Part shown: positions 22,350 through 24,065 of the stretch, piece after piece
Layout of the letters: every line of letters begins with the position of its first letter
How positions within the stretch are numbered: position 1 is the stretch's first letter
Origin: an uncultured Eubacteriales bacterium
GTDB taxonomy: Bacteria; Bacillota; Clostridia; Peptostreptococcales; Anaerovoracaceae
Assembly (NCBI GenBank): GCA_902775345.1
Contig: CACYLW010000008.1
Coordinates: 80,012-144,011 of the forward strand
DNA: 64,000 nucleotides
Direction: 5' to 3'
The notes under the pieces: generated by a model
Databases searched by the model: none
What the model was told of the DNA's origin: nothing
What the model saw: the letters and a program-made list of their open reading frames with translations, nothing else
Position numbers and translations under genes: made by a program

Positions 22350-23798
22350 TTACTGATCTTCTCCGAAATCAGCCTTGTATGCGGCAACCAGTTTCTCAGG
22401 CCAGTCAGATGTCGCCTCAAGCTTTCCTGTAAAGAATCTGAGCGTCGCAGGCTCATGCACGAACCTGAGTCCGCCTATAAGATCCCTGTGATCAAAGACC
22501 CACTTAACTCTGTCTATCACGTATTCGACCTGTGAGAGCGTGAACACTCTTCTCGGAAGAGCCAGTCTGACAAGCTCCATGGACGCGAATCTTTCACTTC
22601 CGTCAGCGTTCCTTTCTTCAGAAAGAGTGCCTCGCTCCATTCCGCGGATACCGCCGCACAGGTAGAACGCGCACACAAGGGCTCCCGCAGGGTATTCCTG
22701 CTGAGGTATGTGTGAAACGAAAGTGCTTGCATCGACATGCGCTCCCAGACCGCCGGCAGGAGTTATCATCGGAACACCGTACTCCACAAGTTTGTCGACG
22801 CAGTACTTTATGAACTGAGGTCCGTGTGAAATGATATCCATGTCCATCGACTCATCAAAGCCCACTGTCATGGCTTCTATCTCGCGCACCGACATGCCGC
22901 CGTATGTGAGGAATCCCTCAAACATAGGGACCAGATCCTCCATCGAGTGGAACAGTTCTTCATCCCTGACCAGTATGGCGCCGCCGCGCGCGAAGCCGAA
23001 CTTCCTGGCCGAGAAGTATATCATGTCGAACTGGTCAGCGATCTCTCTTGTGATGTCGCGCACGGACATGTCCTTTCGCTCTTCATCACGTATTTTTATG
23101 AAGTACAGATTGTCCTGCAGAAGCGACGCGTCAAGCACAGACAGGATCCCGTGCTTTCTTGCTACGGCGCAGGCATCCTTGAAGCTCTGCACCGATACAG
23201 GCTGTCCGCCGATCAGGTTGGTGCCTGCCTCGAGTCTCATGAACGCAACGTTGTCAGCGCCTTCCTTTTCTATGCAGGCTTCCAGCTTATCCAGATCGAT
23301 GTCGCCCTTGAACGGGAGATCGCTCTGCGATACCAGGCCCTCATCCTTTACGAGTTCCTCAACATGGCCGCCGAGTCTGGTTATATGAGCCTTGGCCGTC
23401 GTGAAGTGATAGTTCATGATCACACAGCTTCCCGGTTTTACGAATCTGGTCGCAAGGATGTTTTCACACGCTCTGCCCTGATGCGCAGGCAGGCAGTATT
23501 TCATGCCGAATATCTCCTCAAGCTTGTCCCTCATGCGGAAGAACGATTCGCTCCCTGCATAGGCGTCATCAGGCGTCATCATGCCTGCGAGCATCTGATC
23601 GCTCATCGCGTTTACACCGGAATCGGTAAGCATGTCCATGAAGATGTCGCCGTTATGAAGCTGGAATGTGTTGAAACCGGCTTCCCTCATCTTGCTGAGT
23701 CTCTGTTCGGCAGGCAGAAGCTGAAGCTGCTGAACGATCTTTACTTTATGCATCTCCACAGGAATAGGTTCGTGATCATAGAATTTTATTGCGGGCAT
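22350..23798 (-). CDS. tpl: Tyrosine phenol-lyase / tryptophanase family enzyme, probably tyrosine phenol-lyase
   Basis: A 482-residue PLP beta-eliminating lyase that splits an aromatic amino acid to pyruvate, ammonia and phenol or indole. LTDSGVNAMSD, DDAYAGSESFF, PAHQGRACEN and FKGDIDLDKLE are family hallmarks; the PLP lysine is in SARKFGFARGG. Two positions favour tyrosine over tryptophan: NYHFTTA has Thr after the Phe, as in tyrosine phenol-lyase (Asp in tryptophanase), and GIRGMERG keeps the Arg of tyrosine phenol-lyase (Val in tryptophanase). GGAGG precedes ATG 23798. An attenuator-like leader with six Tyr codons lies just upstream. Tryptophanase remains an alternative. Confidence 0.8.
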   Translation of the reverse strand: MPAIKFYDHEPIPVEMHKVKIVQQLQLLPAEQRLSKMREAGFNTFQLHNGDIFMDMLTDSGVNAMSDQMLAGMMTPDDAYAGSESFFRMRDKLEEIFGMKYCLPAHQGRACENILATRFVKPGSCVIMNYHFTTAKAHITRLGGHVEELVKDEGLVSQSDLPFKGDIDLDKLEACIEKEGADNVAFMRLEAGTNLIGGQPVSVQSFKDACAVARKHGILSVLDASLLQDNLYFIKIRDEERKDMSVRDITREIADQFDMIYFSARKFGFARGGAILVRDEELFHSMEDLVPMFEGFLTYGGMSVREIEAMTVGFDESMDMDIISHGPQFIKYCVDKLVEYGVPMITPAGGLGAHVDASTFVSHIPQQEYPAGALVCAFYLCGGIRGMERGTLSEERNADGSERFASMELVRLALPRRVFTLSQVEYVIDRVKWVFDHRDLIGGLRFVHEPATLRFFTGKLEATSDWPEKLVAAYKADFGEDQ

Positions 23799-23830: not shown

Positions 23831-23865
23831 CAAAACAAAAGCTCCGCAGCTGTCTGCTGCGGAGC
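23831..23865 (-). terminator. Intrinsic terminator in the lyase leader (candidate attenuator)
   Basis: On the minus strand GCTCCGCAGC (23865-23856) pairs perfectly with GCTGCGGAGC (23850-23841), followed by TTTTGTTTT, ending about 33 nt before the lyase ATG. That gap holds the ribosome site but no room for a promoter, so lyase transcripts must cross this terminator. The CGCAGC in the leader ORF (codons 7-9) could pair with the 3' arm and act as antiterminator. Confidence 0.78.
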
Positions 23866-23903
23866 GTCATTAACCATGTGCGTCTGTCACATTATCATAC
23901 TAC

Positions 23904-23978
23904 TCACAGCAAAACAGCTACCCCATCGAGGTAGTAGTAATAATAATATTCTGCTGCGAAGTTGTTTCTCTGTTTCAT
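23904..23978 (-). CDS. Candidate Tyr-rich leader peptide upstream of the lyase gene
   Basis: A 24-codon ORF, Met-Lys-Gln-Arg-Asn-Asn-Phe-Ala-Ala-Glu, then six consecutive Tyr codons (three TAT, three TAC), then LDGVAVLL and a stop. The stop is 38 nt before the terminator hairpin. A run of codons for the very amino acid the downstream enzyme should degrade is the classic sign of a regulatory leader peptide. Against it, no good Shine-Dalgarno site precedes the ATG. The Tyr codons also overlap DNA that can form other hairpins (CTACC/GGTAG). Confidence 0.55.
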   Translation of the reverse strand: MKQRNNFAAEYYYYYYLDGVAVLL

Positions 23979-24065
23979 ACGACGTTGTTTATTGTTAACC
24001 AACTTTAAATATAGCGCTATGTTACTATGCTTCTTTGTTAATTACAACAAATATCACATTTGTTT

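Follow-up and report, generated by a model that had tools for sequence, protein, structure and literature searches.

A probable tyrosine-codon attenuator upstream of a tyrosine phenol-lyase relative proposed to supply tyrosine in clostridia

Tyrosine phenol-lyase (TPL) has been described as an enzyme of tyrosine breakdown; its reaction is reversible and is run backwards by industry. In the DNA analysed here (a stretch of 64 kb, referred to as the window), a gene for a TPL-like PLP-dependent lyase of 482 aa (22350..23798, - strand, ATG at 23798) stands behind a short tyrosine-rich reading frame and an intrinsic terminator, raising the question of what such a leader would sense and whether the gene behind it would serve the breakdown or the supply of tyrosine. 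The first-pass annotation had proposed a Tyr-codon attenuator for tyrosine catabolism over an enzyme with a TPL-like pocket; the attenuator and the pocket are supported by the present analysis, while the catabolic assignment is not. The locus is read here, with a probability of roughly 0.7, as a ribosome-mediated Tyr-tRNA attenuator over a TPL relative which would run in reverse and supply tyrosine.

Anatomy and conservation of the leader

All features of the locus lie on the - strand and are given in window coordinates. The leader peptide ORF (MKQRNNFAAEYYYYYYLDGVAVLL plus stop; 23904..23978) runs from an ATG at 23978 to a TGA at 23904, and re-reading of the coordinates confirmed the six Tyr codons in a row (23931..23948, the proposed sensor) described earlier within its 24 codons. 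The intrinsic terminator (23832..23865) consists of a perfect 10-bp stem (23865-23841) and a T tract (23840-23832); the lyase ATG lies 42 nt past the stem and 33 nt past the T tract, so that the 33 nt given originally holds when measured from the T tract. A consensus scan found no promoter-like site on the - strand between terminator and ATG, in agreement with the view that there is no room for a promoter there. A probable sigma-70-type promoter, placed by consensus only, is located 40 nt 5' of the leader ATG (24019..24047; TTGTAA at 24047-24042, 17-nt spacer, TAACAT at 24024-24019). This pair is the best placement when TTG is required, and its 17-nt spacer is found in 20/22 genus leaders; the candidate (24047-24019) is absent from the list of a stricter consensus scan. 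The lack of a good Shine-Dalgarno sequence before the leader ATG, which had been named as the weak point, was borne out for the source genome, where none is clear, and a loose AGG-type pattern is matched at this position by 15/22 genus leaders. At the Rfam gathering score, none of the known RNA families was found at the locus, nor any T-box (RF00230) within the 64-kb window.

Three competing helices can be drawn from the leader RNA. Segment 1 (UUCGCAGCAGAAUA, 23947..23960), which would be masked by a ribosome on the Tyr codons, is a partner of segment 2 (GUAGCUGUUUUGCUGUG, 23905..23921), which overlaps the leader stop codon and can pair with segment 1 or segment 3; segment 3 (CCGCAGCAGACAGCUGC, 23846..23862) is the antiterminator partner of segment 2 and lies within the terminator stem-loop, the terminator being helix 3:4. 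Consecutive sensed codons, an intrinsic terminator and an antiterminator that excludes it, three hallmarks of trp-type attenuation, are present. The folded leader is stabler than its shuffles (z -3.85, 0/200 as low). When the leader of the source genome was folded with the ribosome A site on Tyr codons 2-5, the antiterminator was obtained, while the terminator formed when no ribosome was present, when one sat at the stop codon, and when the A site was on Tyr codon 1 or 6. These foldings are thermodynamic and take no account of pausing; ribosome positions were modelled for this leader, and energies alone were computed for the other 21.

With plentiful Tyr-tRNA, the ribosome would pass the Tyr codons, reach the stop codon and cover segment 2, whereupon the 3:4 terminator would form and transcription would stop. 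With scarce Tyr-tRNA, it would stall on the Tyr codons and cover segment 1, so that segments 2 and 3 could pair and transcription could enter the lyase gene. The RNA anatomy argues strongly for trp-type attenuation of this kind, ON when Tyr-tRNA is scarce, and the leader very probably acts as such an attenuator.

A search for the lyase in 99 genomes (the source genome included) detected matches in 59 of them (E <= 0.001), many being distant TPL or tryptophanase relatives. Same-genus orthologs occur in 25 other genomes and are 84-99% identical within the best-matching portion; the one in G033 is represented only by 76 residues at the end of a contig. The loci fetched for the genus numbered 25 (the source locus and 24 others; L001 and L008 are one locus), and 22 of these have at least 250 nt of upstream DNA, L019, L021 and L023 having been dropped as their contigs end 177, 1 and 248 nt upstream, respectively. 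By eye, the upstream stretch of L023 looks like the 3'-terminal part of a group II intron. The Tyr-sensing attenuator, for which the alternative helices and the folding switch also speak, is supported by comparison of the leader across relatives: all 22 testable genus orthologs carry 5-8 consecutive Tyr codons followed by a terminator, although one leader (L030) is without ATG and would start with TTG. The run is written in 13 different TAT/TAC spellings among the 22 leaders, and its retention under so many synonymous spellings points to selection on the encoded Tyr residue and suggests that the leader is translated. The leaders of several relatives terminate in a different frame and yet keep a segment like GCUGUUUUGCUGU in the RNA (exact in 15/22), which argues for selection on the RNA as well.

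Statistics for the helices were obtained from the 22 aligned leaders with 500 shuffles each. The 2:3 antiterminator helix has 97.4% of its cells paired and both-sided changes in 4/16 pairs, a level reached by 1/500 shuffles; of five measures applied, one, the number of further pair types, is unremarkable (82/500 shuffles). For the terminator stem, 97.3% of cells are paired and both-sided changes are seen in 7/10 pairs (0/500 shuffles). Helix 1:2, whose segment 1 is also coding, has 91.5% of cells paired and a covariation no higher than in shuffles across the 22 leaders. These numbers are to be taken as supportive only, since the structures were drawn from the source leader itself and related sequences can beat shuffles even when unstructured.

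Leader relatives and T-boxes at other loci

A covariance model built from the 22 lyase leaders was searched against 47 genus genomes (E <= 0.1) and gave 53 matches in 32 of them, including its own 22 training leaders. Of the 31 other matches, 20 regions were read; five of the remaining 11 lie just before tyrS by coordinates. Among the regions read, leader relatives stand directly before tyrS in 11/20 (assigned by position; one of these products, checked against TIGR00234, scores 398 bits) and before prephenate dehydrogenase in 2/20 (G005 and G036), where PF02153 is over its cut-off and the G005 protein falls under the NCBIfam equivalog cut-offs. In one further region (1/20) the gene that follows encodes a TrpX-type substrate-binding protein (284.5 bits against a cut-off of 390; PF04392 over cut-off), another is some 1.9 kb away from tyrS, and two are at contig ends, one of them in G015, the lyase of which sits at another contig end. 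Several side observations accompany these matches. In G036 (L153, G036:C7), the prephenate dehydrogenase that follows the Tyr leader has a stop codon eight codons into its likely start; the same genome also has Tyr leaders with terminators ahead of genes for a deoxyribonuclease IV and for an HD-domain protein (L156, L158; 1/20 regions each), unexpected regulon members. In G005 (1/20), a decayed lyase copy (L155, G005:C14:2583-3338) consists of pieces with stops and still has a Tyr leader 5' of it; this genome retains chorismate synthase and prephenate dehydrogenase.

The upstream regions of two of these genes were also surveyed directly. Leaders with a YYY run precede tyrS in 12/30 loci examined, a 13th pattern match in a GTG frame (L201) being judged part of the upstream gene and not counted. 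The tyrS of the source genome (L194, G000:C4) has no Tyr ORF and, by eye, keeps promoter-like and terminator-like stretches, as if its leader had decayed. A partial second tyrosyl-tRNA synthetase is also found in this genome (G000:C8:9784-10197, - strand; 88% identity over residues 204-341). Among 12 genus prephenate dehydrogenase genes over the cut-off with upstream DNA read (G015 left out, locus L214 unused), nine have no Tyr leader directly before them and closely follow another gene, DAHP-synthase-like by eye. In G017 (L210, G017:C9), prephenate dehydrogenase is directly preceded by a distinct Tyr-rich leader, MTRHNNYGYYSYSYYGYFYSCDL, with what by eye is a terminator-like stem. At L212 (G021:C5), a short reading frame encoding seven Tyr and two Phe (MNRENNFQIVYNYSFRGYAEAYYGVRCYNVLRT) was noticed, together with a terminator-like stem, before a gene that is chorismate-mutase-like by eye.

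Control by amino acids in clostridia and other Firmicutes is usually exerted by T-boxes, which in the kind concerned here are ON with uncharged tRNA. At least 13 distant orthologs of the lyase carry a T-box with the specifier UAC (Tyr), 9/13 above the Rfam gathering score and 4/13 below it at E <= 4.5e-9. UAC followed by A was read at the specifier in 13/13 (seven from the Rfam alignment, six by pattern and eye), and the reading discriminates, since a second T-box at one of these loci, before another gene (L102:15288-15533, - strand), reads UGG (Trp). An ortholog from another family (G083, 59% identity) has a T-box of 112.7 bits. Among the best 80 of 586 matching stretches, nine match the T-box core pattern and six pass the gathering score, the other three scoring 89.9, 53.0 and 52.2 bits, with the latter two cut at contig ends; this count is a lower bound, because a pattern filter was applied first and only its nine matches were given to Rfam. 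The class sample has 22 members outside the genus, of which 21 have upstream DNA (G166 starts at a contig end); a T-box is present in 3/21, two over the gathering score, and in 18/21 the upstream DNA shows no Tyr leader and no T-box. In G090 (56% identity), the ortholog has its own six-Tyr leader, GGAGGAGG, with a strong Shine-Dalgarno sequence and a terminator-like stem that ends 343 nt before the lyase.

Other elements were recorded around lyase loci. A SAM riboswitch (51.6 bits) lies near one of them (L020:3779-3865, - strand), and palindrome-like stretches of the type CGCTTTAA...TTAAAGCG, possibly an operator, were seen by eye upstream of the lyase in L051, L056, L087 and L120. A family that is LysR-like by its start occurs near the lyase at 13/82 loci (L056, L060, L062, L063, L065-L068, L070-L072, L074, L075). 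Recurring neighbours in these 82 loci further include an ABC-ATPase-like family (11 loci) and a 14-locus cluster exemplified by a frame antisense to the lyase, with further families mostly confined to close relatives.

The role in tyrosine catabolism assigned initially is unlikely, given the trp-type anatomy, the presence of related leaders at tyrS and prephenate dehydrogenase genes, and the 13 UAC T-boxes, since a gene for breakdown should not be switched ON when its substrate is lacking. An attenuator that would open when Tyr-tRNA is scarce points instead to the lyase as a tyrosine-supply enzyme, and the same role is suggested by the leader type held in common with tyrS and prephenate dehydrogenase, by the T-boxes and by the distribution within the genus described below.

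The enzyme and its metabolic setting

The closest solved structures are TPLs (398 bits for 9j3u; tryptophanases 326.5 bits or less), to which the lyase is about 40% identical over its whole length. It scores 441.1 bits with the TPL model TIGR02618, under the curated cut-off of 720.7, as do seven further subfamily members (396.4-445.1 bits, all under cut-off), while three clostridial proteins of a 40-42% group pass it with 823.1-856.7 bits; the tryptophanase/TPL superfamily model PRK13238 (NF009709) gives 565 bits, over its cut-off of 285. In the class sample, the two groups fall cleanly apart (>=537 bits versus <=413 bits), and on these scores the lyase is a separate subfamily of TPL relatives. 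For each of eight subfamily members scanned, the top score came from a model named tryptophanase. Of 586 confirmed stretches, some of which may fall outside this subfamily, the best 80 were retained as relatives; these 80 loci are 60-99% identical to the protein of the window and come from several phyla. The nearest named relatives among them are MAGs labelled Mogibacterium or Clostridiales, three of them titled goat or sheep small intestine, a habitat which presumably contains phenol.

Residues were surveyed in 107 subfamily rows (some being one contig fetched twice), with TPL numbering assigned by alignment offset. T124, R381, M379, Y71, Q98, R100, N185, D214, K257 and Y291 of TPL are identical in 107/107, and F448 and F449 are kept in all 105 rows with letters there. 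Changes relative to TPL comprise E69->D, R217->L, K256->R, M288->F and H343->L in 107/107 and N262->R in 106/107 rows. The Thr of HFTTA and the Arg of MERG, noted in the first-pass annotation as favouring tyrosine, are present and identical in 107/107 rows. According to PMC5805759, TPL and tryptophanase are separated by T124, M288, M379, R381 and F448, and R381 is critical for catalysis and binding. Four of these five separating positions are kept, M288 being F, and the pocket appears TPL-like rather than tryptophanase-like. In sum, the phenol-contact residues are retained and the PLP and cation-site region is altered; because residues of this region differ from TPL, the lyase chemistry itself is putative. 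The family chemistry and the kept phenol pocket make phenol the likely precursor, and the enzyme would act in the synthetic direction, forming tyrosine from phenol, pyruvate and ammonia or from phenol and serine.

In the source genome, which is 90.5% complete, neither chorismate synthase nor dehydroquinate synthase gave a match, and its match to prephenate dehydrogenase is below the cut-off. A prephenate dehydratase match (G000:C7:172194-172373; 29.2 bits against a cut-off of 25.2, 61/181 positions, in a 203-aa frame) was observed, and similar pieces recur in sister genomes. Across 47 genus genomes, the lyase and aroB (dehydroquinate synthase) occur together in 5, the lyase only in 21, aroB only in 16 and neither in 5 (Fisher p 1.3e-4); the corresponding counts for chorismate synthase are 6, 20, 16 and 5 (p 4.1e-4), a match being thus present in 6/26 genus carriers. 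In the 19 genus genomes that are at least 90% complete, aroB and chorismate synthase both give 2, 8, 7 and 2 (p 0.023), and for prephenate dehydrogenase the 47 genomes give 5, 21, 8 and 13, which is not significant (p 0.20). A match cut short by the end of a contig was scored as presence, many of the genomes are incomplete, and the p values are only a guide, overstating independence because the genomes are related. Within the genus, the lyase thus tends to occur where the shikimate pathway appears to be missing. In the class sample, chorismate synthase is found in 20/23 carriers (against 294/341 overall), so that a class-wide replacement of the shikimate pathway is not supported and the pattern is one of the genus; outside it, the enzyme would usually be an extra source of tyrosine.

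Canonical trpB, taken as a parallel marker of salvage, is below the cut-off in the source genome. A TrpB2-type gene (L250, G000:C11; 584.9 bits, cut-off 518.85) and the alpha subunit of an indolepyruvate oxidoreductase (G000:C11:1851-3611; 701 bits, cut-off 650.9) are present, and the two would fit a salvage of indole and arylacetates; the indolepyruvate oxidoreductase may also leave another route to tyrosine.

The alternative that deserves most attention accepts the attenuator and assigns a different reaction to the enzyme, such as some other beta-elimination or beta-replacement with an aromatic amino acid as substrate, or the release of tyrosine from a related compound. The subfamily-wide substitutions (R217->L, K256->R, H343->L, M288->F and, in all but one row, N262->R), the score under the TPL cut-off and the presence of chorismate synthase in most class-sample carriers speak for it; the invariance of T124, M379 and R381, the retention of F448 and F449 in 105/105 and a regulation that points to tyrosine itself speak against it, and on balance it is considered unlikely. 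Reverse operation of the lyase towards tyrosine is the preferred reading; the chorismate synthase of 20/23 class-sample carriers and the missing Tyr switch in 18/21 members outside the genus count against it. Its fuller form, for which the odds are put somewhat above even, is a natural route that bypasses the shikimate pathway, in which gut clostridia without a detectable shikimate pathway would join environmental phenol to a three-carbon unit by means of a dedicated TPL subfamily, placed under a biosynthetic-type Tyr attenuator and, in other carriers, under a Tyr T-box.

Known attenuators and implications

The TnaC peptide of E. coli is induced by free Trp, acts together with Rho, and contains a Trp and a C-terminal Pro. 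Were the present leader to work in this manner, stalling with the amino acid present, the locus would be a tyrosine-induced attenuator for tyrosine breakdown, a reading favoured by the TPL-like enzyme and by the order of leader and terminator before the lyase gene, which resembles that of tnaC before tnaA. In both cases a leader peptide precedes a PLP-dependent lyase of aromatic amino acids, but the leader here has no Trp codon and no Pro and is followed by an intrinsic terminator. Alternative helices of the trp type with the stop codon inside segment 2, the occurrence of related leaders ahead of tyrS and of prephenate dehydrogenase, and the T-boxes of orthologs further oppose it; in the 39-42% group, moreover, a T-box is found in 0/14 loci (of which three were tested against the TPL model, all over the cut-off), with a four-Tyr ORF 477 nt upstream in one. 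On the anatomy of the leader and the company it keeps, a TnaC-like mode is rejected as very improbable. A chance TAT/TAC simple repeat beside an ordinary terminator, for which the trinucleotide repeat in the source genome could be taken, can be dismissed almost entirely, as a run of at least four TAY codons occurs once in the window with both strands scanned, a five-TAY run arose in 0/5000 dinucleotide shuffles of the 267-nt intergenic region, and the run is conserved genus-wide in 13 synonymous spellings and recurs before tyrS and prephenate dehydrogenase.

The proposed attenuator over a putatively tyrosine-supplying lyase finds its closest models in the known trp-type ribosome-mediated attenuators trpL, hisL and pheL, with which it shares a short leader with a run of the sensed codon, three predicted alternative helices and an intrinsic terminator before the gene; it differs from them in that Tyr would be sensed, the host is clostridial and the target is a TPL relative. 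From TPL proper (EC 4.1.99.2), with which it has the fold family, about 40% identity and the phenol-contact residues in common, the lyase is set apart by its separate subfamily, its changed PLP and cation-site residues and the proposed synthetic direction. Leader-peptide attenuation is also described in Firmicutes. His leader peptides are reported to precede two hisS paralogs in bacilli, likewise on more than one target gene and in place of the T-boxes of relatives, with the differences that histidine is sensed and hisS paralogs are the targets (PMC2965389). A Leu-rich attenuator of ilv in Staphylococcus aureus similarly controls a supply pathway and is ON at a shortage of the amino acid, but senses leucine and serves a single biosynthetic operon (PMC5794164). 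A precedent for an unusual tyrosine-making enzyme under RNA control is provided by the Bacillus cereus group, where a T-box governs tyrosine-making genes including phenylalanine-4-hydroxylase; that element is a tRNA-reading riboswitch rather than a leader peptide, and the enzyme is a hydroxylase (PMC2494555). In a literature search for Tyr-codon leaders and for this lyase with a T-box or leader peptide, none of the papers, judged by title and the beginning of the abstract, describes such a system.

If the proposed reading is true, an enzyme family known for breakdown would be used backwards in nature, adding a route to an amino acid and explaining the tyrosine source of bacteria without detectable shikimate genes. 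An amino-acid attenuator with relatives before tyrS and prephenate dehydrogenase would have been found in a phylum where T-boxes are usual. It would also help in re-annotating a wide family, of which the eight members scanned score best against a model named tryptophanase, and would connect phenol released by certain gut bacteria with the protein synthesis of their neighbours.
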